From a virus, in IMG/VR virus record IMGVR_UViG_3300017749_000130, positions 1-23,916 of that record: DNA of 23,916 nucleotides, one strand, 5' to 3'. The position numbers and the translations under genes were made by a program. The notes beneath the pieces are model-generated. The model was not told the origin of the DNA and searched no databases. It saw nothing but the letters and a program-made list of their open reading frames with translations. Positions 2,008 through 21,332 of this stretch are shown here, one piece after another (the first letter of the stretch is position 1; each line of letters starts with the position of its first letter).

Positions 2008-2018
2008 TTTATATATCT
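2008..2018 (-). promoter_or_regulatory. Late-promoter-like box AGATATATAAA
   Basis: Exact copy of the 11-nt motif found six times in this window, always between virion genes. It lies between the gp23 terminator and the start at 1969, so it is well placed to restart transcription for the left-edge gene. It resembles the T4 gp55-dependent TATAAATA box; the promoter function is inferred. Confidence 0.5.
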
Positions 2019-2032
2019 ATCAAAACTTGGAT

Positions 2033-2060
2033 AAAAGAAAAGGCCCTCAAAAGAGGGCCT
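2033..2060 (-). terminator. Rho-independent terminator after gp23
   Basis: AGGCCCTC and GAGGGCCT form a perfect 8-bp stem with a 4-nt loop (2041-2060). Read on the minus strand the stem is followed by TTTTCTTTTAT. It sits about 30 nt beyond the gp23 stop and should end the main head-gene transcript. Confidence 0.9.
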
Positions 2061-2088
2061 TTAACTAATTTATATGAACTTTACTAGA

Positions 2089-3519
2089 TTATAGTAATGT
2101 TGCACCGTTATCTCCTAAATCAATTGAGAATTTCTCATATTGAGTTCCTGGGTGGAATCCAGCTTCAACTAATGCGTATCTAGATTTTACAGCTACTTTT
2201 GGAGCCATAGTACCTTCAACGATAGCTTGTACTGATTCAGCCATTAAGTAAGGCATGAATACAAGACCTGGACCGTTACCATCACCTTTTCTACCAACTA
2301 AGATCTCTAAAGATCCGAATTCGATAGATGGGTCAGTATAAACATTAATACCAGCGATTGAACCTAAAGGATAGATTGAACCTGCAACTTGGTTTACAGT
2401 GTTAGCCATTGGATATGCAACGAAACCAGCAACTGATTGTAACGCAGAAGCTACTAATCCACCTACTACAGCGAAGTTACCAGCACCTCTTCTACCATTT
2501 TGCGCGATTAAGTTCGCAGCAGCAAGTACAGAAGTTAAGATTTTTCTGTGTTGATCAGCTTTAGTTTCACCACCAGCTAATGTATCGAAAAGAACATCAT
2601 CGATACCACTACCAGCGATAGATCTCATCTTAGTTAAGATGTGCTCGTTGATAGACTGAGTTAATTCGTTAGTTAAAACTGCTTCTACTTGAGCAACAGC
2701 ATCAACACCGAATTGTTTAAGATCTTGAACTTGTTCTCTAGTAACTGCAGCAGCAACTTGGAAAGTTTCAGCAGCAACTGATTTAGAGAATAAGCTTAAG
2801 CCCATTACTTTGTCTGGAGTTTGTTCCCCTACGCCTCTTGACATTGGAGCGTTATTAGCATCAGCACCAGAGAAACCAGGAATATGGTCTTCTAAAGCTT
2901 TTACTAATTCTACTTTTACATTACCTAAGTCAACACTAAAACAGTCAGCTACAGAACCATCATTAGCTTTAGTATTACCAGCTTCAGTTAATTTGTAGAT
3001 TCCATGTCCATCAATTCTAGATGCTTTTGGTAATAATTCAGCGAATGGAGCTGCATTTAAAGCACCAATAGTTACAACACCATCCTTGTCATCAGAATAA
3101 ACTTTCACGTAAGTTGGAGCAGTTGTACCAGCTACTTTACCACCTTCGTATACGAAGTCTAGGTAAGATAAAAGACCCATTGGTCCAGCCATAGGTACAA
3201 CAGGTACTAAATCTAGACCGATTGTTTGTGCAGCAACTTGCATTGCTAAAGGTAAAAGAGTTGGAGCTTTATCGCCCGAACCTTTTGCAGCGCCAGCAGC
3301 GCCGTTTGCAGGAGCACCTGCAGGGAATGAGACTGCGCCCATACCAAAGATGTTACCAGCAGACCCTAGAGCCATTGTTGATGCATCTTCATAAAGCTTG
3401 TGATTGTGACAGTATTCTGACATCCAAGCTAGCTTTGAGCTTTCGTTAATACCAGTAGCTTCCTCAATGATTGGAGACCACGTGTTTCTAACTTCAGCTT
3501 CGTTAATTAAATTTGCCAT
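2089..3519 (-). CDS. 23: Major capsid protein, T4 gp23-like
   Basis: Forms the hexamers of the head shell. The 476 residues compare with 521 in T4 gp23. The N-terminal region is helical and is followed by a Gly/Ala-rich linker. Then comes a segment (residues 85-125: LLPLAMQVAAQTIGLDLVPV, then PMAGPMGLLSYLDFVYEGGK) that matches the T4 region around PNLIAFDICGVQPMNSPTGQ. The C-terminal half holds the sheet-rich HK97-type core, with GIDDVLFDTLAGG and PSIEFGSLEILVGRKGDGN. T4 gp21 cleaves after (I/L)-x-E; LYE at residues 42-44 just before the linker is a possible maturation site, which would remove a propeptide shorter than the 65 residues of T4. It follows the protease/scaffold gene as in T4 and is bounded by a strong terminator. 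The start has no Shine-Dalgarno, only AATTTCAAA before ATG. Confidence 0.93.
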   Translation of the reverse strand: MANLINEAEVRNTWSPIIEEATGINESSKLAWMSEYCHNHKLYEDASTMALGSAGNIFGMGAVSFPAGAPANGAAGAAKGSGDKAPTLLPLAMQVAAQTIGLDLVPVVPMAGPMGLLSYLDFVYEGGKVAGTTAPTYVKVYSDDKDGVVTIGALNAAPFAELLPKASRIDGHGIYKLTEAGNTKANDGSVADCFSVDLGNVKVELVKALEDHIPGFSGADANNAPMSRGVGEQTPDKVMGLSLFSKSVAAETFQVAAAVTREQVQDLKQFGVDAVAQVEAVLTNELTQSINEHILTKMRSIAGSGIDDVLFDTLAGGETKADQHRKILTSVLAAANLIAQNGRRGAGNFAVVGGLVASALQSVAGFVAYPMANTVNQVAGSIYPLGSIAGINVYTDPSIEFGSLEILVGRKGDGNGPGLVFMPYLMAESVQAIVEGTMAPKVAVKSRYALVEAGFHPGTQYEKFSIDLGDNGATLL

Positions 3520-3615
3520 TTTGAAATTTTATTATTTTTGGTTTTTGTTTAAATGTTTCTCTCGAAACTCGACTTGCTTGGGTTTTTCGCTTCTGTCACC
3601 CTTATCGTCGATTAA
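3520..3615 (-). promoter_or_regulatory. Long structured-looking leader of gp23
   Basis: About 100 nt without a recognisable gene, long for a genome where most gaps are 0-40 nt. It is less AT-rich than the other gaps and holds nested complementary segments (TCGAC with GTCGA, and ACCC with GGGT), so the capsid mRNA leader could fold. A 16-codon frame starting GTG at 3599 and ending at 3549 also exists. I cannot tell whether either matters. Confidence 0.3.
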
Positions 3616-3626
3616 TTTATATATCT
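3616..3626 (-). promoter_or_regulatory. Late-promoter-like box AGATATATAAA upstream of gp23
   Basis: Exact motif copy abutting the stop codon of the protease/scaffold gene (TAA at 3627-3629). It is 96 nt upstream of the gp23 ATG and would give a capsid mRNA with an unusually long leader for this genome. Promoter role inferred. Confidence 0.5.
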
Positions 3627-5129
3627 TTATTTTTTAAATCTTTTCTTTAAGCTTTCAGCGTATCCAGAAACGTCATATAATGGCTCGTCTTTCTTCTCAG
3701 TCGTAGCTGATTCGTTAACTGCCGCTAATTTTTCTAGGTCAACTTTTACCTCTCTTAGATCTCTAGTTTCCCAGAAGTTTCTAACTTGATACTCAGTATT
3801 TAAAGTATGGTATTTTGCTTGAGCTTTAATTTGATTTTGTTTTCCTTCAGTTAGAGATTCAAACTTATCTTTATATTCTGCAGGAGCTGCAGTCATATAG
3901 AATGGTTCGTCATTTCTAGCTTCAACAACAGCATTTGCGTTATCAATGATTGCACTGATTTGCGCCTCATTCATAAATGCTCTTTTTGTAACTCTGTTTC
4001 TAACTTCAGTTTTTGCATCTTCGTTTAGTGTATTGTAAGCTTCTTGTATAGAACTTGATACTACATTTAAAAATGCAGGGTTTTCATTTTCTTTTACTTG
4101 TGCAGCTTCAACTAATGCATCTAACTTAGATGAAATTTCTTTTTTGTAAGACTCTAATGGATCGTGTGCTCCATCTTCACCTTCAGTTTCTTCATCACCC
4201 TCACCAGCTTCAGCTTCTTCAGTTTCACCTTCTGGCTCAACTTCAGATACATCTTTAGTTTCATCTTCTAATTCTTCAGCAGGCTCACCGATGTCACCCT
4301 TAGGATCTACATCACCTTCTTTTGAATTATCTCCAACGTTTTCAATATCGTCTTCTGCTTCTTCTTTTTCTTGACCAGGCTCTTCAGCTGCATCTTCTTC
4401 TTCAGAAACTTCTTCAGATTCAGAGTGGAATTCTTCGTCTTCGTCTTCAACTACTTCTTCAGCACCTTCACCAGCTTCATCTTCTTCAGCTACTTCTTTA
4501 GCTCCATCTTCACCTTCATCTTCAGCAGGTATTTCACCAGCTTCAGCCTCTTCAGTTTCACCTTCTGGCTCAACTTCAGATACATCTTTAGTTTCATCTT
4601 CTAACTCTTCAGCAGGTTCTCCTGATTCATCTTCAACTTCTTCTTCAACTAAATTTTCGTTGATTTGAGTTGCAATATATTCAGTGTATTCTGAAACTGT
4701 CTGTAAGTTTTCTTTTAAGTATTCAACATACTCTAAAAGATTTTTACTTGTATCAACACCTTCATTATGAGATTCTGCTAAATAATTAGCAAAGTCTTTA
4801 ACTTTAGTAATACCTTCTGCGATATGTTCAGTATATTGAATACCTTGATCTAATTTTTCAGCAATAGCCTCAGTATAAGATATACCTTTATCTGCTTTTT
4901 CAGCAACGTGTTCTGAGTACTGAATTGACTCATCTAATTTGCCAGCTAAATACTCAACATATTCTGATAGAGTATTGACACTTTCAACGATATGGTCGTT
5001 ATGAGATTTTACATTCTCTAACGTGTTATCTTCGCTTTGAGCTCCGATAGACTCTTTAATGCCTTTAATTTCATTAGCTAAGTACTCAGAATACTTATTG
5101 AAATCTTCAGCTTTTACAAATTCTGCCAT
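3627..5129 (-). CDS. 22: Possible internally started scaffold protein (nested in the protease gene)
   Basis: In-frame ATG at 5129 (M207 of the fusion), preceded by A-rich AAAGAAAAAAAC like other starts here. It begins MAEFVKAEDF, exactly where the protease linker ends and the helical scaffold region begins. Translation from it would give a 500-residue protein without the protease, comparable to lambda C/Nu3, where the scaffold is started inside the protease gene. The ATG and the domain boundary are visible; its use is inferred. Confidence 0.4.
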   Translation of the reverse strand: MAEFVKAEDFNKYSEYLANEIKGIKESIGAQSEDNTLENVKSHNDHIVESVNTLSEYVEYLAGKLDESIQYSEHVAEKADKGISYTEAIAEKLDQGIQYTEHIAEGITKVKDFANYLAESHNEGVDTSKNLLEYVEYLKENLQTVSEYTEYIATQINENLVEEEVEDESGEPAEELEDETKDVSEVEPEGETEEAEAGEIPAEDEGEDGAKEVAEEDEAGEGAEEVVEDEDEEFHSESEEVSEEEDAAEEPGQEKEEAEDDIENVGDNSKEGDVDPKGDIGEPAEELEDETKDVSEVEPEGETEEAEAGEGDEETEGEDGAHDPLESYKKEISSKLDALVEAAQVKENENPAFLNVVSSSIQEAYNTLNEDAKTEVRNRVTKRAFMNEAQISAIIDNANAVVEARNDEPFYMTAAPAEYKDKFESLTEGKQNQIKAQAKYHTLNTEYQVRNFWETRDLREVKVDLEKLAAVNESATTEKKDEPLYDVSGYAESLKKRFKK

Positions 5130-5747
5130 GTTTTTTTCTTTTATTTCTGTATTTGTGTTTGTTGTAATAATTTCTTTTTCAATAACTTCAGTTTCTCCGT
5201 TCATTTCGTAGATCCAAAGACCTGAATTATTATCAAAACCATAAGATTCATTTACTCTCTTTAACTCAGCATTAGCAAATCCAGGATCTGCAACTAAGTC
5301 ATAAGTAAATAATTGTTTGATTTTAACTTGACCGTTTGATTCTACGGCTCCCGCAGCTCTTGAAGAGATCTGTAAAGGTACACCAGCATCAACTAGTGCT
5401 TTAGCTTGACGACCAGCGTCAGTATCTAATAGTCTAATTTTACCCTTTACGTGCTTTGAGTCTTTATCGTAGAAAAGTTCCTCTATAATATGCGAAACAT
5501 TTTTTAGAGAAACATCAAATTGTTGAGGATGGTCTAACTCACCTAATAGTTTAGAAGACTTAATCTTGTCTTGTAACTGTTCGATTTGAGGTATATACTC
5601 ATCTTCAGTATAAATTCTGTTGTTTTTATTCTTAGTGTCTATTTCACCAAAAATACCTTCGAGAATGTACTCTTTATTTTCCTTTGAAGCTACGCTCAGT
5701 TGGGAAGAGGACATTTCGACGATTAATAAATCGTTAGCTTTTGCCAT
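3627..5747 (-). CDS. 21: Prohead protease (gp21) fused to a scaffold/core domain (gp22-like)
   Basis: The N-terminal ~165 residues are a T4 gp21-type maturation protease: GELDHP supplies the catalytic His (H73) and QISSRA the Ser (S128 or S129), followed by TYDLVADPGF. After a linker (166-206) the protein continues in frame for 500 residues that look like a scaffold. This part has a helical region with five tandem 14-residue repeats (263-332, consensus YTEHIAEKLDQGIQ), a very acidic Glu/Asp region (about 367-540) containing a duplicated 28-residue block, and a helical C-terminal domain. In T4 the protease (212 aa) and scaffold gp22 (269 aa) are separate genes. Here M207 (ATG at 5129) is preceded by AAAGAAAAAAAC and could start a free scaffold protein. 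The gene sits between the gp67-like gene and gp23, where 21 and 22 belong. Protease assignment is firm; the scaffold role is inferred from position and composition. Confidence 0.88.
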   Translation of the reverse strand: MAKANDLLIVEMSSSQLSVASKENKEYILEGIFGEIDTKNKNNRIYTEDEYIPQIEQLQDKIKSSKLLGELDHPQQFDVSLKNVSHIIEELFYDKDSKHVKGKIRLLDTDAGRQAKALVDAGVPLQISSRAAGAVESNGQVKIKQLFTYDLVADPGFANAELKRVNESYGFDNNSGLWIYEMNGETEVIEKEIITTNTNTEIKEKNMAEFVKAEDFNKYSEYLANEIKGIKESIGAQSEDNTLENVKSHNDHIVESVNTLSEYVEYLAGKLDESIQYSEHVAEKADKGISYTEAIAEKLDQGIQYTEHIAEGITKVKDFANYLAESHNEGVDTSKNLLEYVEYLKENLQTVSEYTEYIATQINENLVEEEVEDESGEPAEELEDETKDVSEVEPEGETEEAEAGEIPAEDEGEDGAKEVAEEDEAGEGAEEVVEDEDEEFHSESEEVSEEEDAAEEPGQEKEEAEDDIENVGDNSKEGDVDPKGDIGEPAEELEDETKDVSEVEPEGETEEAEAGEGDEETEGEDGAHDPLESYKKEISSKLDALVEAAQVKENENPAFLNVVSSSIQEAYNTLNEDAKTEVRNRVTKRAFMNEAQISAIIDNANAVVEARNDEPFYMTAAPAEYKDKFESLTEGKQNQIKAQAKYHTLNTEYQVRNFWETRDLREVKVDLEKLAAVNESATTEKKDEPLYDVSGYAESLKKRFKK
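4201..4283 (-). repeat. 83-bp direct repeat, copy 2
   Basis: Copy of the block at 4534-4616 with two mismatches over 83 bp. It encodes the acidic segment beginning PAEELEDETK and ending EEAEAGE, about residues 489-516 of the fusion protein. The copies are offset by 333 bp (111 codons), so the frame is kept. It looks like a recent internal duplication or gene-conversion tract. Confidence 0.9.
4534..4616 (-). repeat. 83-bp direct repeat, copy 1
   Basis: Partner of 4201-4283, encoding about residues 378-405 of the protease/scaffold fusion. The sequence between the copies is also acidic but not an obvious third copy. Confidence 0.9.
4752..4961 (-). repeat. Five tandem 14-codon repeats in the scaffold domain
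   Basis: Residues 263-332 read as YVEYLAGKLDESIQ, YSEHVAEKADKGIS, YTEAIAEKLDQGIQ, YTEHIAEGITKVKD and FANYLAESHNEGVD. An aromatic at position 1, an acidic or polar residue at 3, hydrophobic residues at 5, 9 and 13 and Ala at 6 recur. Related fragments flank them (KYSEYLANEI at 219-226, SEYTEYIATQ at 352-361). Fourteen residues are two heptads, consistent with an elongated amphipathic helix. Confidence 0.8.
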
Positions 5748-5768
5748 ATCTATGGTTTTTATTATTTT

Positions 5769-5780
5769 TAATATATATCA
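5769..5780 (-). promoter_or_regulatory. Variant late-promoter-like box upstream of the protease gene
   Basis: Minus strand reads TGATATATATTA, sharing GATATATA with the exact copies. It ends 21 nt before the ATG at 5747. Weaker match, same position relative to the gene as at the portal gene. Confidence 0.35.
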
Positions 5781-5808
5781 CGTCTTATTATGCAAATATC
5801 TTAATATG

Positions 5809-6153
5809 TTAAATGCCTGCTAGAGGATCGTCTTCTTCGCCACCCTCTTCTTCTTTATCAGCTTCTTTCTCTTCTTCTTTCTCCTCTTCAGCGTCTTCAG
5901 TTTCTTTATCTAGATAATATTTAACTAGAACGTCTATTTCGCCTTCAGCAAATGCATCTTGACCATACTCGTTAAAGAAATAATCTTTAAATTCTTTTTC
6001 TGTTTTAGATGCCGTAATTGCACCTAAAATCTCAGCTGATTTAATCTCAGCACCAGAATCTAATTTTACTGGTTCTACATATACATCCGATTCTTCTCCG
6101 GCTTTTAATGCATCTTCAGTAATAAATTCTTTAAATGTTTTGTAAATCTTCAT
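5809..6153 (-). CDS. Small acidic prohead-core protein, gp67/gp68-like
   Basis: A 114-residue protein between portal and prohead protease, the place of T4 genes 67 and 68. It starts MKIYKTFKEFITED, has a short mixed helical middle (residues 30-80) and ends in a 30-residue tail of almost only Glu, Asp and Lys, then DDPLAGI. The acidic tail recalls T4 gp67, the highly acidic core protein (80 aa) cut up by gp21 during head maturation; the N-terminus is more like the start of gp68-type core proteins. No enzymatic motif is visible. Position and composition support a core role, but sequence similarity is too weak to choose between 67 and 68. Confidence 0.6.
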   Translation of the reverse strand: MKIYKTFKEFITEDALKAGEESDVYVEPVKLDSGAEIKSAEILGAITASKTEKEFKDYFFNEYGQDAFAEGEIDVLVKYYLDKETEDAEEEKEEEKEADKEEEGGEEDDPLAGI

Positions 6154-6155
6154 GT

Positions 6156-6166
6156 TTTATATATCT
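6156..6166 (-). promoter_or_regulatory. Late-promoter-like box AGATATATAAA touching a start codon
   Basis: Exact motif copy that ends only 2 nt before the ATG at 6153. As a sigma-type box it would start RNA inside the core-protein gene, so it could serve the downstream protease gene but not the first codons of the gene it touches. Confidence 0.4.
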
Positions 6167-6192
6167 CTTTTTCTTAATTATCTAGGACTATA

Positions 6193-7791
6193 TTAGAATC
6201 CCATACCATCATCTTCTGGTTCTGGCTCCTCTGCCGCGGCTTTTTGGGCTTTAGCTTTAAATGCCTTATTAGCTCTAATTTCATCTTCAGATAACTTCAA
6301 GTATTTAGTAACAAGATATTCTTGGTCAAAGTAGTATTCTTCTTCCATAGTTTCTTGGTTGGTTGTCATTAATGAGTCTCTCATACTTGAGATAAAGTCT
6401 AATCTCAACTGCATGATTTCTTGATTTTTTAATTCAGCAAATACATTCTCTTCATTAAATCTTAAAGCTACTTGAGTTTTAAACTGTGGGTCGTCGCTAA
6501 ACTCAGGGTATTTAAGACACATTTGAATGTAAAGAGGTTTTACTAGAATCTCTTGGAATACCGATCTTAATCTATTAATAAACTTAGCAAATTTAATTTC
6601 ATCTCTTACCATACCATCGCCTGCTAATGCATAATCACCACCATCTTCTTCATATAAGAATCTATTGTAAGGAATTTTAGAAACTTCTTTAAGTTTATCT
6701 TGAAAATATTTAAGTGCTTCGGTATCTGATAGGTCTGGTCCTTCACCGCCAAGAGTTTCAATTTCTGGCGTTTCACCATCTTTAGAAGGTAACCAATACT
6801 CTTTAGAGAATTGTAACATTGGTTTGCCGTCTGTTGTTAATGAACCTGATTCGAAGTCAAAGTCAACAACTTCTTTATAGTTATTCATTAGTTGAGCTAA
6901 CGATTGTTTTGCTCTTGTTTTAGATTTACCACCAACAGGGATAATAAACTTCATTCTAAATGAAGCATTGGTCACTGCCCAGATTACTCTGGTGTGTTCC
7001 ATAATTCTAAGTAGGTTAAACGATCTAATTAATCTCTCAACATAACTAACTCTTGAAGCAGTTGAAAGAGAAGAATAAGAAAGGTAAATGATTTGAGAAT
7101 CATATAATACCCTTTCTTTTACTGGATCATCTTTATATTGAATCCATACCTTCTTGCCATCGTCTTTATTAAAACCTGGCATTAAGGTTACTGGATCTAT
7201 TTCTTTAAAACCTATAATTTCTTTTTGGTCAGGGGAATAAATTATTTCAAAAGCAAGATATCCATCAATAAGAAATTTTCTAAAGAAGTACCATGCTGAT
7301 TGTTCACCATTAAAACCAAAATAGTGATAGATTTGTCTAAAGTATTTGTTAAGGTCTTTGTTAACCTCTTCGGAAACATCAAGACCCATAATAGAAGGTT
7401 GTGCAAAGAAATTCTTTTCATCATATACAACTGCTTCATCACAAAGTATATCTAGAATATCTTCAACTTCATCGTTCATCGCGAACCTTCTAAGTTCGTC
7501 TCTTTTACCAGGATAATCAATATCAAAGAACGGTACGTTCTTCTTCATATTAATATCTGCCATGGATAGTGCAGCAAATGCACCATAAATATCATCGTTG
7601 TCTAGGCCAAACGGGTTCATCTCTCTATAGCCAAACTGGTCTTCCATTGGACCAATCGCTTGAGATTGTCTAAGTACCATGTCATCATAGCGCATACCAA
7701 AAGAACTTAGCGTTTTCAAAGCATTTGAAAGGCTAAATGGTCTGCTATTTGAACTAAATGGTCCGTTTCTTTTATCAGTAAATCCTGCCAT
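6193..7791 (-). CDS. 20: Portal vertex protein, T4 gp20-like
   Basis: Dodecameric portal at the unique head vertex through which DNA is packaged and released. The 532 residues compare with 524 in T4 gp20. Recognisable portal segments include a region rich in DEVEDILDILCDEAVV (about residues 105-120) and the wing region YLAFEIIYSPDQKEIIGFKE. The run FKEIDPVTLMPG follows, with RVSYVERLIRSFNLLRIMEH and an acidic region around LYEEDGGDYALAGDGMVRDE near residue 390, typical of the gp20 stem/crown. The C-terminal ~25 residues are Ala/Glu/Lys-rich and probably disordered (ends DDGMGF). It starts at ATG 7791, 19 nt after an AGATATATAAA box, and is followed by the core and protease genes in T4 order. 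Confidence 0.92.
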   Translation of the reverse strand: MAGFTDKRNGPFSSNSRPFSLSNALKTLSSFGMRYDDMVLRQSQAIGPMEDQFGYREMNPFGLDNDDIYGAFAALSMADINMKKNVPFFDIDYPGKRDELRRFAMNDEVEDILDILCDEAVVYDEKNFFAQPSIMGLDVSEEVNKDLNKYFRQIYHYFGFNGEQSAWYFFRKFLIDGYLAFEIIYSPDQKEIIGFKEIDPVTLMPGFNKDDGKKVWIQYKDDPVKERVLYDSQIIYLSYSSLSTASRVSYVERLIRSFNLLRIMEHTRVIWAVTNASFRMKFIIPVGGKSKTRAKQSLAQLMNNYKEVVDFDFESGSLTTDGKPMLQFSKEYWLPSKDGETPEIETLGGEGPDLSDTEALKYFQDKLKEVSKIPYNRFLYEEDGGDYALAGDGMVRDEIKFAKFINRLRSVFQEILVKPLYIQMCLKYPEFSDDPQFKTQVALRFNEENVFAELKNQEIMQLRLDFISSMRDSLMTTNQETMEEEYYFDQEYLVTKYLKLSEDEIRANKAFKAKAQKAAAEEPEPEDDGMGF

Positions 7792-7810
7792 AATATAGTA
7801 TTATTTCTGT

Positions 7811-7821
7811 TTTATATATCT
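7811..7821 (-). promoter_or_regulatory. Late-promoter-like box AGATATATAAA upstream of portal
   Basis: Exact motif copy, overlapping the TGA stop of the upstream 193-residue gene by one base and ending 19 nt before the portal ATG. This is a spacing expected for a T4-type late promoter with a short leader. Confidence 0.5.
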
Positions 7822-8402
7822 CATTTATTTGAATGGTTTCTGAACATAGCTCTTACGGCTCCAACACCCTTGCCTTCTAGATCTGTAAAATCGCAAAGTG
7901 CTATCCTTGACCAATGTTCATAACCTACTACTGCTTGTTGTTTTTTAAGACTTGGAATATATTGTCTAATTGCAAAATCAAAACCAAACCTACCTAAGAA
8001 ACCCTTTGCTCCGTCGTAGCTTATTCCTAACGGTGCCTGATTTTTAGCTGGTTTACCATCTTGCCCTTTAATAAATCCTTGAAATCTCTCATAAACTACA
8101 TCTAATAGTTCTTCTTTAATATTGGGTGGTAACATATTTAAATTAATCCCGCAATCATTACCACCAGACGGGTCTAATGCCAATACACATGGGTTCTTAT
8201 CCCACCACTCTGCTGACTTTGGCGTATCATATCTAAATACGTATATCTGTCCAGGTCTAAATCTTCTAGCAGTACTCTGTACTGCATTTTCTCTAATAGA
8301 CTTTTTTGAATCTTCAAACCAAGATTCAGCAGCAGTCTTGGCTCTAGCTTTACCACCAGATTCCTTTGCTAATTCTCCTATACCTTTTTTAATAGCTCCC
8401 AT
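7821..8402 (-). CDS. Uncharacterised 193-residue protein between gp4 and portal
   Basis: Starts at ATG 8402 in a TAATG overlap with gp4. The N-terminal ~45 residues are basic and helical. The rest is a compact domain with RFRPGQIYVFRYDTPKSAEW, then NPCVLALDPSGGNDCGINLN and MLPPNIKEELLDVVYERF. The run from GQIYVFRYD to INLNMLPP (a beta-rich part with a buried Asp and Gly-Ile-Asn-Leu-Asn turn) looks like a segment I associate with conserved hypothetical or structural proteins of marine T4-like phages; I cannot name a function. The C-terminal part has aromatic/basic residues (FAIRQYIPSLKKQQ). No catalytic motif is evident. Co-transcription with gp55, gp4 and portal suggests a late, head- or neck-related role, which is inference. 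Confidence 0.75.
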   Translation of the reverse strand: MGAIKKGIGELAKESGGKARAKTAAESWFEDSKKSIRENAVQSTARRFRPGQIYVFRYDTPKSAEWWDKNPCVLALDPSGGNDCGINLNMLPPNIKEELLDVVYERFQGFIKGQDGKPAKNQAPLGISYDGAKGFLGRFGFDFAIRQYIPSLKKQQAVVGYEHWSRIALCDFTDLEGKGVGAVRAMFRNHSNK

Positions 8403-8878
8403 TATTTAAGTGTTTTTTCTGTTAATACAATAAATCTCATATTACGACTTTCACACCATGCTTGTGCGTATTTATATTTGTCAGTATTTTTAACGTATTG
8501 TTCTGCTAAAAATTTATATGAATTAAGAGCTTTTTTAGATTTTGTTTTAGGAGGGAGTGGTTTTTTAATTTGAGCTTCTGGTTTTATTTCAACCATAAAC
8601 TCTTCTTCAATACCTTCTTCATTTTTAGTCTTCATATAGAAATCAGGATAATACTTATGTTGTTTATTATCTTGTCTAGAAATATATTTAATTTCTACAG
8701 GTTCACTTGACCACTTTAATACATTATCTTTAGTATCACACATAATACAAAACTTTCTTTCCCAAGAGGAACGGTAAATGATCGGCGTTGGGCCGATATA
8801 TTTCTCAGGATTTTGAGGCTCATAATAGCCTTGTACAAATCCTGAATTCCCAGTTGGTTTTAAGTTTTTTATTGACAT
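8402..8878 (-). CDS. 4: Head completion protein, T4 gp4 (gp50/65) family
   Basis: Needed in T4 to finish filled heads before tail joining. The 158 residues match the T4 gp4 pattern: YRSSWERKFC near residues 35-44 (T4 has YRSNWEKFFF), LKWSSEPVEIKY, YYPDFYM and MVEIKPEAQ. The last part has NTDKYKYAQAWCESRNMRFI followed by VLTEKTL (T4: NTDKWKAAQSLAEKRGIKFR and ILTE). E40, D79, E97 and K99 form the E...PD...ExK arrangement of PD-(D/E)xK nucleases such as TnsA, so a nuclease-like fold is likely; whether it cuts DNA is not shown by the sequence. ATG 8878 overlaps the gp55 stop (TAATG), and its own stop overlaps the next start in the same way, suggesting coupled translation. Confidence 0.88.
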   Translation of the reverse strand: MSIKNLKPTGNSGFVQGYYEPQNPEKYIGPTPIIYRSSWERKFCIMCDTKDNVLKWSSEPVEIKYISRQDNKQHKYYPDFYMKTKNEEGIEEEFMVEIKPEAQIKKPLPPKTKSKKALNSYKFLAEQYVKNTDKYKYAQAWCESRNMRFIVLTEKTLK

Positions 8879-9255
8879 TAGATATTAAACATACCGGATT
8901 CACCATCACTATTCTTAGTGTTGATACGATCCATTGACATTGTATTTTTATATTTAGTCGGATGTATTTTATTCCAGCCCTTCGCATACCCTCTCTTTGC
9001 TATCTCTGTGAAATAGGCAAAGGCGTTAGTATATTTAGGATTAAAGTTACGCCAGTATTTTAAGAGGTCTAGTATTGCAAACTGTAAACAATCGTTTCTA
9101 TCATCACTATTTACGTAAACTAATTTTCTTATTGCCCTCTCTGCTAAAAGAATTAACATCTTTTCAGCATCCCTAGTTAACTTATCATCCTCTAAAGACT
9201 GCACAATCTGATTGTATAGATCTTTATTATTTAGATAATTCTTTTTTCTTGGCAC
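8878..9255 (-). CDS. 55: Late-transcription sigma factor, T4 gp55-like
   Basis: Directs host RNA polymerase to late promoters in T4-like phages. The 125 residues (T4 gp55: 185) keep the family core: YLNNKDLYNQIVQSL at the N-terminus (T4: YVNNKELLQAII), a region-2-like segment with DRNDCLQFAILDLLKYWRNF, then NPKYTNAFAYFTEIAKRGYA. T4 reads [20 protein letters not shown] and PHAYITQACFNAFVQ here. The protein ends GESGMFNI, a short hydrophobic tail in the position of the clamp-binding tail of T4 gp55. The start is GTG at 9255; no ATG is available in the frame near the conserved N-terminus. It is the first gene after a terminator and has a possible TATAAT box of its own. It leads an operon with gp4 and portal, an arrangement unlike T4, where 55 lies near 47/46. 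Confidence 0.85.
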   Translation of the reverse strand: MPRKKNYLNNKDLYNQIVQSLEDDKLTRDAEKMLILLAERAIRKLVYVNSDDRNDCLQFAILDLLKYWRNFNPKYTNAFAYFTEIAKRGYAKGWNKIHPTKYKNTMSMDRINTKNSDGESGMFNI

Positions 9256-9264
9256 GTTTGCTTT

Positions 9265-9284
9265 GTTTAATTTACTATTATATG
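9265..9284 (-). promoter_or_regulatory. Possible promoter of gp55 (CATATAATAG)
   Basis: TATAAT at 9277-9282 (minus strand) lies directly behind the terminator of the upstream gene and 21 nt before the GTG at 9255. Similar TATAA-type boxes precede the clamp gene and uvsX. No clear -35 element is seen; early or middle expression is a guess. Confidence 0.3.
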
Positions 9285-9314
9285 AAAAAAAGCCCGAATG
9301 TTTCGAAACGGGCT
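9285..9314 (-). terminator. Rho-independent terminator after the 392-residue gene
   Basis: On the minus strand AGCCCG (from 9314) pairs with CGGGCT (to 9291), with an inner TTTCGAAA palindrome in the loop, and is followed by seven T. It separates the 148/gp15/392 operon from the gp55 operon. Confidence 0.88.
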
Positions 9315-9342
9315 TTTAATGGGATTTAGGAAGAAAGTTTAA

Positions 9343-10521
9343 TTAAAATGCATCTTTAGAATCTAAAGCAATTTTAAACTTTTCAATTCTTGCAGGCTCA
9401 TCTTTTATGAATACTGTAAGTATATCATTCTTTCCTGCATTATTATATTCAAGAGCGTCTACTCTCATTACCTGGTCTTTTGGATAACCATCAGATTCTA
9501 CTTTTAATTGAGCAGAGACATATCCATCTTCAATATCTAAAATATCTTCATTTTGTGCAGTAGATAAAACTTCAGAAATTCTTTTGATTTCAGACTTTAA
9601 TAAGTTATCCGCAGCTTTAATATCTGGTAAGTTTCTATCAGCTTCTGCTAATCTACCTACTTGATCGTGTAGGAATGATAACATCTCATTGTAAAGATTA
9701 ATCTTTTCGTTTTTAGCAGCTCTTCTTTCTGATAAAGATTCTAATAAAGACTCTACTAATTCTGTAATATCATCTCCTGTTTGTTCTGCTACATATTCTA
9801 CTGCAGCATCTGCTAATAATTTTTTAAACTGAGAAATTTTAGTAGTTTCATTTACTCTATAAATAAATACATTATTTTCAGCTTTCATTGTGTAAACTTT
9901 AATATCGTTATTTACAGACTCTTTTACAAAATCTAGCTCTACAAAAGATTTAAAATTTTCTGCTGCTAATTCAAATAATCTAAAAACTGACTTATCTTCA
10001 TATTTAATATAACCGGCAGCAAATACGTTTTCTGTTAAAGACTCATCTTTAGCCATTGCAAATTCTATTTTGCCTGCATAATATGATTCTTTATTCCAGT
10101 GGAATTTAATAGTTGTAGCAGATTCATTAACACTATTAAGTGAATCTTTAGTAGATTTTATCTCTTTATTAATAGATTTTACAGCTTCCTTTTTTCCGGA
10201 AACTCTAAGTTTTTTAGCCTCTTCGTTTAAAAAGTCTAATTTTTCACTTAATTCGTTAAATTTGTCAAAATTATCTAAAGAACCTTTCTCTATATTGTTA
10301 ATAACTGATTTATTTTTAAAATCATAATAAAAGGTTACACCATTTTCATTTATTTCAAATAAATCTTTAGCTTTTAAAAGATTATTAAAAACTTCTGATG
10401 TATAATTAGATTCTTGAATATGACTACCTGTAATCTTGAAGTTCTTTCCAGCTACGTTAAAGATATAACCAAAACCTTCTTCAACTGTAGGTGAAATAAC
10501 TGTTTTTCTTGAATTTGTCAT
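9343..10521 (-). CDS. Uncharacterised 392-residue protein, probably virion-related
   Basis: Not recognised. Residues 1-85 look globular (EGFGYIFNVAGKNFKI, then VTFYYDFKNKSV). Residues 85-135 are a charged coiled coil, and a second beta-rich part follows (TIKFHWNKESYYAGKIEF, then FAAGYIKYEDKSVFRLFELA). A long helical region (about 250-335, SERRAAKNEKINLYNEMLSF) leads to a C-terminal beta segment (VSAQLKVESDGYPKDQVMRV). No Cys, no signal peptide and no catalytic motif are seen. It is the last gene of an operon with the gp15-like gene, ends at a terminator, and has a variant late box before its start. A structural or assembly role is inferred from that context. Confidence 0.75.
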   Translation of the reverse strand: MTNSRKTVISPTVEEGFGYIFNVAGKNFKITGSHIQESNYTSEVFNNLLKAKDLFEINENGVTFYYDFKNKSVINNIEKGSLDNFDKFNELSEKLDFLNEEAKKLRVSGKKEAVKSINKEIKSTKDSLNSVNESATTIKFHWNKESYYAGKIEFAMAKDESLTENVFAAGYIKYEDKSVFRLFELAAENFKSFVELDFVKESVNNDIKVYTMKAENNVFIYRVNETTKISQFKKLLADAAVEYVAEQTGDDITELVESLLESLSERRAAKNEKINLYNEMLSFLHDQVGRLAEADRNLPDIKAADNLLKSEIKRISEVLSTAQNEDILDIEDGYVSAQLKVESDGYPKDQVMRVDALEYNNAGKNDILTVFIKDEPARIEKFKIALDSKDAF

Positions 10522-10546
10522 TTTGTTTGTTTTTATTTCTATTATA

Positions 10547-10556
10547 CTATATATCA
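10547..10556 (-). promoter_or_regulatory. Variant late-promoter-like box before the 392-residue gene
   Basis: Minus strand reads GATATATAG followed by TATAATAG, 25-30 nt before the ATG at 10521. It shares GATATATA with the six exact copies but lacks the final AA. Confidence 0.3.
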
Positions 10557-10562
10557 GTTAAA

Positions 10563-11639
10563 TTATTCATCTATTTTACCACCAAATGGGTATTCACTTC
10601 CTTCAACTGTATAATTATCTCCTAGCATTGTTCTATCTTTCTCAATTGGCTTACCTATTAAGGTCTCTGTATTGCCAATATTAAACATTCTATTTGATTG
10701 TTTTCTTCTTCTTGATACTTTCTTAATTTGAGAATCAGAGCTTACTAAACCACCTAAAAATGCTAATACATTAGGATCTGTACAATCTTTACCCTCTTCT
10801 ACTTTAATCCACTCTTGTCCGTTAGATTCCCATTTTGCAGGATAATAGCTATCATAATAAATATTAGGTATAAAGTCTGGTTCTATAAAACTATTAGGAT
10901 CTCCATAATTTCCACAAATACCATTTTCGTATACGGTCCTTGTAAACTTTCTATAAGTATCTTCTTCAAAATCAAATGAAGGAATAAATGAATTAATATC
11001 TAAACTAAATGTAATTTTATGATTTGCTTTATCATCAAAGCTATATTCTACAGGTCTTTCTTGTGTATAATCATCTGGCATTTGATATTCAGATGAAATT
11101 CTATAGGTACCTTCTTCTAAATGGCCAGCGTCAATATGATAAAAATTAGCCTTATACATTTTTTTAACGATAGCCTCTGTTACTTTAAATAAATCTAATT
11201 GACTTGATACTAATATTTCAATATCGACTCCAATTACACACGGTATCATTTCGAATTCTGCAACATAGCCCTCCATTAGGCCATCTTCATTCATCATGGC
11301 GTACTTACCTAAATTTCTTTTATTGACTAACTTACCAGGATCTACTGCAAACGAAGTTAAATTGACAATACCTCTAGGTACTTTATCATAATTTCCATCT
11401 GCAAATTCACCATCAGGATCACATCCAGTGCCATTTACATTTGAGAATAAAAAGCTATCTTTTAAGAAATTTTCATCACCAGACACTGCATAAAAGAATG
11501 GGACATCAACAACCGATCTTTCATCATTGCTAACTTGTCTCCAAAAACTTAGTTTACTATTTAAATCTGCTAATAAACCTACTACAATATGTCTAACAAC
11601 GGAATCATCTTTATTAAATTTAAGATTGTAAGTTGCCAT
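10563..11639 (-). CDS. 15: Candidate tail sheath stabiliser / tail completion protein, gp15-like
   Basis: In T4, gp15 caps the tail tube and sheath and joins the tail to the neck. The 358-residue protein (T4 gp15: 272) shows the same layout. An N-terminal helix (DSVVRHIVVGLLADLNSKLS) is followed by a short strand and VVDVPFFYAVSGDENFLKD (T4: RRYATLMGDLFSNIQIKR, then RVPITYASKEHFMMKL). Then comes MIPCVIGVDIEILVSSQLDL and FKVTEAIVKKM (T4: MIYELSIFTRYEDDMFQIVE, then QILPYF), and a strand-rich end RPVEYSFDDKANHKITFSLD (T4: RRRIEWSLTFEVNGW). The alignment is by eye and the identity is low, so this is a candidate. The extra ~85 residues lie in the acidic loop after residue 70 and in the C-terminal tail. 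It follows a 148-residue unknown with a 13-nt gap. Confidence 0.5.
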   Translation of the reverse strand: MATYNLKFNKDDSVVRHIVVGLLADLNSKLSFWRQVSNDERSVVDVPFFYAVSGDENFLKDSFLFSNVNGTGCDPDGEFADGNYDKVPRGIVNLTSFAVDPGKLVNKRNLGKYAMMNEDGLMEGYVAEFEMIPCVIGVDIEILVSSQLDLFKVTEAIVKKMYKANFYHIDAGHLEEGTYRISSEYQMPDDYTQERPVEYSFDDKANHKITFSLDINSFIPSFDFEEDTYRKFTRTVYENGICGNYGDPNSFIEPDFIPNIYYDSYYPAKWESNGQEWIKVEEGKDCTDPNVLAFLGGLVSSDSQIKKVSRRRKQSNRMFNIGNTETLIGKPIEKDRTMLGDNYTVEGSEYPFGGKIDE

Positions 11640-11652
11640 TAATTATCTTTAA

Positions 11653-12099
11653 TTAGTTTACATTATCACCGCCACCGTTATCTTGTGCTACTGATCCTGT
11701 AAAGTTTGTCCAAAAACCCTTACCCTGTAACCATGCCAGAGCAGCATCAACATCGCCACCAAAAGATTGTGCACTTCCGGCTATAAAAGGTTCTCTAGAA
11801 ATTTCTTCACATTTGCGAATAAATTGCATATCTCCTGCAACATGTTTAAATCCAATGTATGCTGGAGTAGGATTGCCATTATTATCATATGTATTTCTTA
11901 CGCCTGTTTTAACAGGAAATGCTATATGATTTCCAGCGCCGTTTTGACCTTCGTCTTCTGCACCCTGGTGCCATGTAAGGCCAGTAGCTGTAAAGTTTAT
12001 TGAACTTTCAGTTCTTTGAACATATCCGTCAGTTGCATTTCCATGCTGAGCTACAGATGCAATGTTTGTATCATTTTGTGTAAATGCGTAGTGTGCCAT
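11653..12099 (-). CDS. Uncharacterised 148-residue protein, first gene of the virion block
   Basis: Not recognised. It is rich in Gly, Asn, Ala and Thr with few charged residues, reads as mostly beta structure and loops (residues 1-60, MAHYAFTQNDTNIASVAQHG), has one Cys, and ends with a low-complexity Gly/Asn/Asp tail. The middle contains GFKHVAGDMQFIRKCEEISR, a probable helix. There is no signal peptide or membrane segment. The composition and the two late-type boxes before its start fit a small surface or structural protein. It is followed at 13 nt by the gp15-like gene. Confidence 0.7.
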   Translation of the reverse strand: MAHYAFTQNDTNIASVAQHGNATDGYVQRTESSINFTATGLTWHQGAEDEGQNGAGNHIAFPVKTGVRNTYDNNGNPTPAYIGFKHVAGDMQFIRKCEEISREPFIAGSAQSFGGDVDAALAWLQGKGFWTNFTGSVAQDNGGGDNVN

Positions 12100-12119
12100 A
12101 TTTTAAATATTTTATTTGT

Positions 12120-12130
12120 TTTATATATCT
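12120..12130 (-). promoter_or_regulatory. Late-promoter-like box AGATATATAAA (proximal)
   Basis: Exact motif copy ending 20 nt before the ATG at 12099, the same spacing as at the portal gene. It marks the switch from replication genes to virion genes. Confidence 0.5.
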
Positions 12131-12133
12131 GCT

Positions 12134-12160
12134 TATTTATATGATATAGTTTATATATCT
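12134..12160 (-). promoter_or_regulatory. Tandem late-type boxes: AGATATATAAA and TATAAATA
   Basis: A second exact AGATATATAAA (12150-12160) starts 2 nt after the gp46 stop codon. It is followed in the transcription direction by TATAAATAAGC containing the exact T4 late consensus TATAAATA (12134-12141). With the proximal box this makes three candidate late boxes in 41 nt. Confidence 0.45.
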
Positions 12161-18565: not shown

Positions 18566-19774
18566 TTAAAATAATGCTGATGCATAAATCAGGTTAGTGT
18601 CTAATGTCTGTAATTTAATAGCTTTTAATACTCTATTAAGTGGGTCAATCATACACTTTTCAAATTGTGTATCATAGTCTACTTTAGGTGCGATCTCATA
18701 AGGATGTTCACCTGGTAAATAAGCAAATACTTCAGAGATTGGAGTTTTACAATTGTAGATCTTAAGCTTCTCACCGTTACCAATCAATTTATATTTGTTT
18801 TTATATTTAGAATTGTTATTCAAGTTATAGTTATAGTAACCTGCTGCCTTTACATTAGCTGGACATTTTAGTCCTACTTGAAATTCAATTTGGTCATCTA
18901 CAATATACTTTTCAATATTATTAGTTCTTCTATTAAATGAGATGTCGTCAATATTTGCTAATGCAAATTCTTTTTTAGTCTCTTTCATAAAGCTAACTAA
19001 TTGTTGTAGCTCTTCAGCGCCAGGTGTTTTCTGTGACCTGAATAAAATTCTAAGTGCTTCTACTAATTTCTCTCTTGCAAACTTTGGTGTAGAAGATTGA
19101 ATAGTATCAAAGCCGATTGTCTTTACTTTCTTAAGCGATGAATGTCTATCAGTAGTTTCTAGTTTATCATCCCATGCAATATTTTGAATATACTTTTTCT
19201 TTGACATCCAAATACCATTATATGCAAGAGATTCTAGTTCAAAGAATAAGAAGTTATCAGTATTAGATACATCAGCATATTTTTGCATACATTTAGTAAT
19301 ATAGTCTTGAAGTCTAAATGCATAGAACGCTAGGATAAATTCATCAATAGGTAAAACATTATCTTCATCTTCCCAGATAATAGATTCATAAAGGTCTTGA
19401 AACTGAACGTAACATGAATCTGTGTCAATATAAATTACTGCAGGTTTTTCAATTTTACCCTTTACTTTAATATTGAATTGTTCGTGTACTTTAGTATCTT
19501 TATGCCAAAAATCATTAACGTATTTGTTAAGGATGGTTTCGGAATAAAGAATAGCATCTTTACCTTGTTTAGTAATGGACTCTGCAATATCAATATTAAA
19601 AAAGTGAAACCACTTATTACCGAATGCACCATAAATAGAGTTAAGAGTAAGTTTTACAGCTTGTTCATAAGCAGTATACTTAGCGGAGAGTTGCTTGTAA
19701 TGTTTTACAAGCACTTCCGCCTCTTCTTTACTTAGTTGATCGGTTGGTTTATTTTCTAATGCAGTAACATCCAT
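18566..19774 (-). CDS. 43: DNA polymerase (gp43), C-terminal half only
   Basis: Family B replicative polymerase, but only 402 residues against 898 in T4. It opens in the fingers domain: after ~40 helical residues comes motif B, AVKLTLNSIYGAFGN (K41, N45, Y48, G49; T4: LKLTLNSLYGALGN). Motif C YIDTDS (D117, D119) and the KKKY motif (192-195) follow, then the thumb region and a short hydrophobic C-terminus ALF that could bind the clamp. The 3'-5' exonuclease, the N-terminal domain and palm motif A (the first catalytic Asp, DxxSLYP) are absent, and the adjacent upstream gene is the clamp with a 3-nt gap. The other half must be encoded elsewhere for an active enzyme. The fragment is not decayed: motifs intact, normal start, tight operon. 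Confidence 0.93.
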   Translation of the reverse strand: MDVTALENKPTDQLSKEEAEVLVKHYKQLSAKYTAYEQAVKLTLNSIYGAFGNKWFHFFNIDIAESITKQGKDAILYSETILNKYVNDFWHKDTKVHEQFNIKVKGKIEKPAVIYIDTDSCYVQFQDLYESIIWEDEDNVLPIDEFILAFYAFRLQDYITKCMQKYADVSNTDNFLFFELESLAYNGIWMSKKKYIQNIAWDDKLETTDRHSSLKKVKTIGFDTIQSSTPKFAREKLVEALRILFRSQKTPGAEELQQLVSFMKETKKEFALANIDDISFNRRTNNIEKYIVDDQIEFQVGLKCPANVKAAGYYNYNLNNNSKYKNKYKLIGNGEKLKIYNCKTPISEVFAYLPGEHPYEIAPKVDYDTQFEKCMIDPLNRVLKAIKLQTLDTNLIYASALF

Positions 19775-20544: not shown

Positions 20545-20574
20545 ATTATATAGTAAAATGCTAGTTAGTTTCAA
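20545..20574 (-). promoter_or_regulatory. Possible promoter of the clamp/polymerase operon
   Basis: On the minus strand TTG (20574-20572) is followed after 19 nt by TATATAAT (20552-20545), close to the -33/-7 spacing of Bacteroidetes promoters, although the downstream element does not match TAnnTTTG well. It lies directly behind the terminator of the outer-membrane gene, where a new promoter is needed. Confidence 0.3.
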
Positions 20575-20606
20575 TAAAAAACCCAGGGATCCTAGAAACC
20601 CTGGGT
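20575..20606 (-). terminator. Rho-independent terminator after the outer-membrane gene
   Basis: ACCCAGGG (20581-20588) and CCCTGGGT (20599-20606) form a perfect 8-bp stem with a 10-nt loop; on the minus strand it is followed by TTTTTATTG. It isolates the outer-membrane gene from the replication operon. Confidence 0.9.
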
Positions 20607-20629: not shown

Positions 20630-21046
20630 TTAGAATTTTAAGCCAAATCCGATTTGAAGGTTAGTAGTTTCAGCTCCTAAATCGTAAACGATTTTTGGAT
20701 CTACAAACATTGCTCCTTTGTGGAACTCAAACATTTTACCTACACCTAATTGAGCTTGATCGAAATCAAAGTCGTTTAGTGCAACATAGCCAAAAAAGCC
20801 TTTATGGAAATATCTTCCTTCTAGACCTAAGACCATGTCTTCTGTTGAGTCAGCTTGTGTCAAATTCATTCCAACCATATAGTTGTCAGAAAAAGCATAG
20901 CCAATTGTTGGCTGGATTGATAACTCAGTCCAAGCCGTGTTAGTAATATCGCCAGTACCTACGTACCAGTCACCTTTTGCATTTTGTGCATTTACACTTA
21001 AAGTTGTTAAAACTGCAAGCGTCATTGTTAAAATAAAATTTTTCAT
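20630..21046 (-). CDS. Small outer-membrane beta-barrel protein with signal peptide
   Basis: A 138-residue protein starting MKNFILTMTLAVLTTLSVNA, a typical signal peptide with likely cleavage after A20 (VNA-Q), giving a 118-residue mature chain. The rest alternates short amphipathic strands with turns (LSIQPTIGYAFSDNYMVGMN, then MVLGLEGRYFHKGFFGYVAL, ALNDFDFDQAQLGVGKMF and TTNLQIGFGLKF). It ends in Phe, the C-terminal signature of outer-membrane barrels, and has length for about 8 strands. Barrels of this size occur in Bacteroidetes (OmpX/OmpW-like or porin-like proteins). It is a single-gene unit between two terminators, with a TATAAATA box upstream, so late expression is likely. A role in changing the host surface (blocking re-adsorption) or stabilising the envelope is speculation; host origin is likely. 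Confidence 0.8.
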   Translation of the reverse strand: MKNFILTMTLAVLTTLSVNAQNAKGDWYVGTGDITNTAWTELSIQPTIGYAFSDNYMVGMNLTQADSTEDMVLGLEGRYFHKGFFGYVALNDFDFDQAQLGVGKMFEFHKGAMFVDPKIVYDLGAETTNLQIGFGLKF

Positions 21047-21082
21047 TTGTTAATTAATTTGGTTTATTGATTATTTGAAATA

Positions 21083-21175
21083 CTAGTCTACTCTAGGAAT
21101 TGATGAGCTAGTATTAGCCGCCGAGTCGGAATCGGAGGTTTGCTTTAATATTTTTGTTAACGATTTATCGTTCAT
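21083..21175 (-). CDS. Possible 30-residue Ser-rich peptide upstream of the outer-membrane gene
   Basis: ATG at 21175, preceded by ACAAAGAA, opens a 30-codon frame ending in TAG at 21083. The peptide begins MNDKSLTKILKQ, continues with a Ser/Asp/Ala/Thr-rich stretch (DSDSAANTSSS) and ends IPRVD. It lies 18 nt after a TATAAATA box and 36 nt before the outer-membrane gene. Codons are plausible but include GC-richer ones (tcg, gcg, gac) than neighbours. It may be a small late protein or chance; no homology can be claimed. Confidence 0.35.
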   Translation of the reverse strand: MNDKSLTKILKQTSDSDSAANTSSSIPRVD

Positions 21176-21192
21176 TTCTTTGTTAATGTGCT

Positions 21193-21200
21193 TATTTATA
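21193..21200 (-). promoter_or_regulatory. T4-type late promoter box TATAAATA
   Basis: Exact T4 late consensus TATAAATA followed by AGC, as in the copy at 12134-12141. It is placed to transcribe the 30-residue frame and the outer-membrane gene after the nrdA terminator. Promoter use is inferred from the presence of gp55. Confidence 0.5.
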
Positions 21201-21243
21201 CAGGGGTTCTGTGTTTTGTTCCAAAAAAAGTTAATAAACTTGT

Positions 21244-21282
21244 AAAAAAGATGAAGCCAGGTAGTAGCGAACTCCTGGCTTC
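21244..21282 (-). terminator. Rho-independent terminator after nrdA
   Basis: GAAGCCAGG (21253-21261) and CCTGGCTTC (21274-21282) give a perfect 9-bp stem; on the minus strand ATCTTTTTTACA follows. A second small hairpin, CCGAG/CTCGG (21286-21301), precedes it. It ends the nrdB-nrdA transcript. Confidence 0.92.
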
Positions 21283-21332
21283 GTTCCGAGAACTATCTCG
21301 GTCCTAAGAAGTGGACTTAACCACAACTAATA

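Follow-up and report, generated by a model that had tools for sequence, protein, structure and literature searches.

A predicted outer-membrane beta-barrel protein in a moron-like cassette of a T4-like phage, with a possible role in superinfection exclusion

A marine T4-like phage represented by a 23.9-kb virus record carries, between nrdA and gp45, a moron-like cassette of ~0.65 kb that encodes a predicted outer-membrane beta-barrel. We read the protein as a putative moron-like modifier of the infected-cell surface, most likely one that serves superinfection exclusion, and put the probability of this reading at roughly 0.45. Superinfection exclusion is suggested because the timing class of the gene, the membrane location of the product and its homology to host proteins point in the same direction. 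In this scheme the barrel would be synthesised before the structural proteins, cross the inner membrane through Sec and be assembled into the outer membrane by BAM. As a version of a host protein with trimmed loops and loop 1 retained, it would change the infected-cell surface; most likely it would bind or dislodge a host surface partner that serves as phage receptor, and further phages would then fail to adsorb, resulting in superinfection exclusion. Early expression is frequent among superinfection-exclusion proteins (PMC9586334). The barrel is an uncharacterised protein present in hundreds of uncultured marine phage contigs, and a search of annotated phage records gave no significant match to it. 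Should it prove to alter adsorption, it would offer a concrete way into the question of how within-cell competition is controlled by phages that infect abundant ocean Bacteroidetes, and the homologous host outer-membrane protein (OMP) would become a candidate receptor.

The window, by which we mean the whole 23.9-kb stretch analysed, contains head and tail structural genes and replication genes, all on the minus strand. Genes for the major head protein, portal, protease and tube lie on one side, and gp46/47, gp41, uvsX, the C-terminal half of a polymerase, gp45, nrdA and nrdB on the other. Some of these names were assigned by PHROG match and others by gene order and the layout of T4. The phage is T4-like and appears lytic. 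Bacteroidetes are its likely hosts, because the nearest annotated relatives of the major head protein belong to an uncultured megaphage (48%) and to Prevotella Lak phages (~40%), and because a contig binned with Flavobacteriales carries a relative of the barrel cassette. A hydropathy scan of the annotated window genes revealed none that is envelope-like apart from the barrel, in agreement with the reading made earlier from the letters of the DNA (hereafter the sequence-only reading). The DNA polymerase is probably split, as its ORF (window 18566-19774, minus strand, 402 aa) matches no more than the C-terminal half of the family profile. Features of the cassette and its surroundings are listed in Table 1; related loci carry L numbers below.

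Table 1. Positions in the window of the barrel cassette, its boundaries and the motifs compared with it
Feature	Position	Strand	Remarks
CDS, predicted 138-aa outer-membrane beta-barrel protein	20630..21046	-	signal peptide ~residues 1-20, eight strands, C-terminal Phe
Putative signal peptide region MKNFILTMTLAVLTTLSVNAQ	20984..21046	-	AF2 helix 2-22; aligns with signal peptide of host relatives
Barrel promoter TTGGAAC-17-TATAAATA	21193..21224	-	same class as gp45 promoter
Structured 5' leader, three covarying hairpins	21048..21183	-	covariance model R1 match, E 9e-14
Upstream ORF, 30 codons, MNDKSLTKILKQTSDSDSAANTSSSIPRVD and stop	21083..21175	-	within leader; frame conserved in 19/20 leaders
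TCCTAGA element	21092..21098	-	in loop of leader hairpin 3; complementary to terminator loop
nrdA intrinsic terminator	21253..21282	-	upstream boundary of cassette
Barrel terminator CCCAGGG-TTTCTAGGAT-CCCTGGG + T6	20582..20605	-	loop within 20588-20598 invariant, stem variable in relatives
gp45 promoter TTGAAAC-17-TATAAT	20545..20574	-	downstream cassette boundary; reference for promoter class
Late-type motif GATATATAAA, comparison set outside cassette	2008..12159	-	5' ends 2017, 3625, 6165, 7820, 12129, 12159

The barrel ORF runs from an ATG at 21046 to a stop at 20630, exactly as first noted. It is a real and conserved gene that is under purifying selection (pN/pS 0.07/0.46 in the mature part; as a ratio, about 0.11-0.16). 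The signal peptide claimed by the sequence-only reading is seen as an N-terminal signal sequence ending in NAQ, for which we infer the cleavage site, and the terminal Phe is the last residue in all 59 distinct family members. The structure prediction proposed there as a check gave eight strands in an AF2 model (residues 26-37, 41-51, 56-65, 71-81, 84-91, 99-108, 113-122 and 127-137, short adjoining strands merged; mean pLDDT 78, pTM 0.69), which was built from a shallow alignment of 22 aligned relatives and is of moderate confidence. In Foldseek searches, the best fold match in the PDB was 6x9z, a de novo eight-strand transmembrane barrel (TM 0.60/0.68), and the viral matches in BFVD were mostly phage outer-membrane barrels at sequence identities of ~7-17%. 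The predicted signal helix, eight strands and terminal Phe are the general hallmarks of an outer-membrane beta-barrel, and the proposal of such a barrel finds further support in weak PF13505 matches (16 of 22 members) and in homology to Flavobacteriales OMPs.

IMG/VR yielded 171 relatives of the barrel by single-sequence search and 311 by profile search. Among the INPHARED phages, tblastn with the window barrel and with the barrel of the distant relative L108 found no match at E<=1; a sequence search of the PDB returned nothing meaningful, PHROG gave no significant match for the family, and no paper on the family was found in the literature. The best of the PF13505 (OMP_b-brl) matches had an E of 5.8e-5 and the window barrel itself had none, while the host relatives scored 18.6-30.6 against a cut-off of 28.7, with one of seven above it. 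PF24653 (Phage_OMP) was matched at E<=1 by 0 of 22 family members, and weakly by two host relatives and no others. Searched in this way, the family appears to match no curated family convincingly.

Outer-membrane barrels encoded by phages are well recognised, with Lom, PF24653 and many BFVD entries as examples. The sequence-only reading had called phage-made surface barrels uncommon, which is overstated given the large number of such phage proteins in BFVD and the existence in Pfam of the cyanophage family PF24653. Members of the latter and the BFVD barrels of S-CBWM1, Vibrio nt-1 and Cellulophaga phi17:2 are also small phage-encoded outer-membrane barrels; the BFVD proteins match the window barrel in fold, but at the low identities given above. 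Lambda Lom and Ail (OmpX-like, moron-borne) are likewise eight-strand barrels encoded as a separate unit on a phage genome, but the fold match to Ail is weak (E 0.02, TM 0.4-0.5) and the window barrel has no sequence match in the Ail/Lom family. In addition, Ail and Lom have long protruding loops, unlike the 4-8-residue surface loops of the window barrel. With T5 Llp and T1-type Cor, both of which act in superinfection exclusion, the proposed likeness lies in outer-membrane location and early-class expression (PMC9586334). Llp and Cor are small lipoproteins, whereas the window barrel is a predicted integral barrel without a lipobox. What distinguishes the barrel family is its loop trimming with respect to host proteins and its leader architecture.

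The host relative that the sequence-only reading had expected in Bacteroidetes was found by profile search, with matches at E<=1e-3 in 65 of 296 Flavobacteriales genomes, in one of which the match is a previously found phage-like contig. Those viewed in context adjoin housekeeping genes, for example alaS, hisS and purA (names assigned by eye). The closest host homologues are 222-234 aa long and share 38-45% identity with the phage barrel over 60-80 residues; one chromosomal 222-aa protein (L227 3641-4309) is 45% identical across the first 60 residues, and the homology is strongest in the signal peptide and the first two strands. These chromosomal eight-strand, PF13505-like OMPs have in common with the phage barrel the signal peptide MKKFIL..NAQ, strands 1-3, loop 1 (SWTEW), the periplasmic D54/G59, an FxRYY strand, a VEP/DPK strand and the C-terminal Phe. 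The phage barrel differs from them in its shortened loops, with ~25 residues missing from loop 2, 30-35 from loop 3 and 15-30 from loop 4, in having its own leader and terminator, and in occurring in some phages only. Because loop 1 is kept and loops 2-4 of the host proteins are ~15-35 residues longer, we read the phage barrel as a loop-trimmed form of the Flavobacteriales OMP family, a description that implies no direction of transfer. A peptide-pattern scan of genome contigs for a cellular source identified only two phage-like contigs in MAGs.

The gene had been described as an isolated unit bracketed by terminators, and both parts of this description hold. The barrel is flanked by intrinsic terminators, and its unit includes a promoter, a leader and a terminator of its own. 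Some phages have an empty site, and elsewhere (L011, L014, L015, L082) this leader and barrel occur together in different surroundings. Close relatives share the gene order nrdB-nrdA-barrel-gp45-gp43, with the barrel at the nrdA-gp45 junction in L084-L096, L107 and L118. L097, whose nrdA and gp45 are 90% and 85% identical to those of the window, has no barrel at this junction or anywhere in its 101-kb record; its nrdA terminator runs directly into the gp45 promoter, and in the window the barrel unit stands between the two. An extra gene with its own promoter and terminator that lies between conserved genes and is missing in close relatives corresponds to a phage moron as defined by sequence; classically, moron expression comes from a prophage and does not depend on the lytic programme.

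The barrel start lies ~140 nt from the promoter, and the leader in between is conserved as an RNA. In an alignment of 19 relatives, 94.9% of the pair cells are kept and 31 have both partners replaced; 500 shuffles never scored as high, and slid controls reached at most 67%. When 312 kb were scanned with the R1 model, E<1e-9 was obtained only before barrels (best others E ~0.8-1), and Rfam gave no leader match above the gathering score and only tRNAs elsewhere. The distance from the ATG of the upstream ORF to CTAG equals 1 modulo 3 in 19 of 20 leaders despite seven different lengths, whereas that from CTAG to the barrel start shows no frame conservation (10, 8 and 2 in three classes). Since the frame is conserved upstream of CTAG but not downstream, the comparison argues for translation of the upstream ORF, although its pN/pS of only ~0.7 is weak. 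The terminator has a variable stem but an invariant loop, TTCTAGGA, which is complementary to CCTAGA of the leader and, among the terminators compared, occurs only behind the barrel. Pairing between the two loops is suggestive, and we regard it as a lead only, because a 7-nt complement arises in ~4-8% of shuffled leaders per sequence; several relatives have complements of 8-10 nt. A probable role of the leader peptide and the hairpins is to adjust translation or the stability of the mRNA, and the frame-conserved ORF within a covarying RNA represents a testable regulatory element. In distant groups the leaders before barrels are different RNAs. Two other conserved structured leaders, neither with an Rfam match, precede related barrels (L068 5842-5982 and L043 5851-6000, plus relatives; alignments A3 and A4).

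In the relatives, TTGGAAC or GTGAAAC stands 17-18 nt upstream of a TATAA-type box, as in the gp45 promoter, which is itself recognisable in most phages read, with or without barrel. The motif GATATATAAA has a different distribution: in the window it occurs six times on the minus strand and never on the plus strand (0.17 expected), and every site is 12-106 nt before a structural gene, none before the barrel. It is likely, and offered here as, a candidate late promoter of this phage group. Among 60 distinct barrel loci, 32 have a gp45-type TGRAAC-TATAAT promoter, one (L108, barrel 47% identical) has GATATATAAA 51 nt before the barrel, 26 have neither motif and one is too short to judge. With its gp45-type promoter and missing late motif, the barrel of the window lineage most likely belongs with gp45 in timing class. 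The gp45 gene of T4 is an early or middle gene, and from the promoter likeness we infer early or middle synthesis of the barrel. The sequence-only reading had the gene as late, which for the window lineage is not borne out; a late motif was found in L108 alone. That motif, the 26 loci with neither motif and the adjacency of barrels to holin and endolysin genes are among the points against superinfection exclusion.

The adjacency is what chiefly favours a lysis or release factor, since envelope and lysis genes recur beside barrels. The barrel would then act with holin or endolysin genes to open or destabilise the outer membrane, replacing spanins or working beside them. At the nrdA-gp45 site, a Phage_holin_10 gene (PF23987; Pam3 gp28 family) stands where the barrel would be in the sister phages L097 and L101; in L108 the barrel adjoins such a gene, with late-type motifs on both; and in L038 an Amidase_2 endolysin, Phage_holin_4_1 and a TM protein precede the barrel. 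In many distant lineages the gene behind the barrel encodes a 74-80-aa two-TM protein, and small u-spanin-like or i-spanin-like proteins are encoded close to it in L011 and L054. However, the promoter of the window lineage is gp45-like rather than late, the neighbours in the window are nrdA and gp45, several barrel contexts have no lysis-gene neighbours, and we know of no lysis protein that is an intact eight-strand barrel. Overall, we hold a function in lysis to be doubtful, though it is the strongest of the alternatives. The two-TM protein is encoded directly behind the barrel in L036 (6444-6671), with homologues in L038, L081, L083, L154 and L193; it has no Pfam or PHROG match and may be a holin-like or exclusion partner. 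The products of L011 4335-4529 and L054 4896-5081 are small lipoproteins with a C-terminal TM segment that resemble unimolecular spanins. The gene immediately before the barrel in L042, L154 and others looks by eye like one for a ribonucleotide reductase.

With standard topology, the mean entropies of loops L1 and L2 are 0.61 and 0.56, compared with 1.11-1.45 for the periplasmic turns. Such conservation is unusual for surface loops and, as an arms race over a variable receptor fits poorly with L1-L2 being more conserved than the periplasmic turns, it speaks against superinfection exclusion. Conserved rather than variable loops would suit outer-membrane maintenance, in which a minimal OMP keeps the envelope intact after host shut-off and leaves adsorption unaltered. 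The host-related sequence and strong purifying selection are consistent with this, and the leader could stabilise the mRNA. However, the barrel is accessory and missing in close relatives, and a single small barrel would be an odd means of preserving envelope integrity; we therefore consider maintenance unlikely, somewhat more so than lysis. Also unlikely is a specific form of surface change, in which the phage has turned a host OMP into a loop-trimmed decoy or replacement that hides infected cells from phages using the long loops of the host protein, and in which expression is controlled by a leader-peptide RNA with a hairpin loop that contacts the terminator loop of the same gene.

The patchy distribution of the barrel over several contexts would also be expected if a host gene had been acquired by chance and travelled as an ordinary moron together with its promoter and terminator, neutral or under weak selection and playing no part in infection. 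This is improbable in view of the pN/pS of ~0.11-0.16, the residues invariant across 59 distinct members, the conserved leader and the conserved two-gene module. Equally improbable, in our view, is a late transcription unit of the T4 type, read from TATAAATA, whose product would be a virion or surface protein. The exact TATAAATA pointed out upstream is indeed present (21200-21193, minus strand), 147-154 nt from the barrel start with the conserved leader and its short ORF in between, but it occurs at chance frequency (four in the window against 4.4 expected) and is not conserved: among the loci read it is exact only in the window phage and its 100%-identical copy, and relatives have TATAAT, TATAAA or TATAAC at that position. 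L108 speaks for a late unit, whereas the window barrel lacks GATATATAAA, and a T4-type late gene via TATAAATA is rejected for the window lineage. Replacement of a host porin, another suggestion of the sequence-only reading, is rejected as unlikely for an eight-strand barrel of such size with 4-8-residue loops. Of the functions which that reading put forward, receptor masking or a block to superinfection is still the one we favour, as a proposal.

Behind nrdA, a conserved structured element occupies window positions 21250-21330 (minus strand). It consists of CTTAGGACCGRGATAGTTCTCGG followed by the hairpin GCCAGGAGTTCGCTACT.CCTGGC with a T-tract, and has no Rfam match. Whether or not a barrel is present, L097, L101 and L105 have an almost identical element and L115 has a related one.
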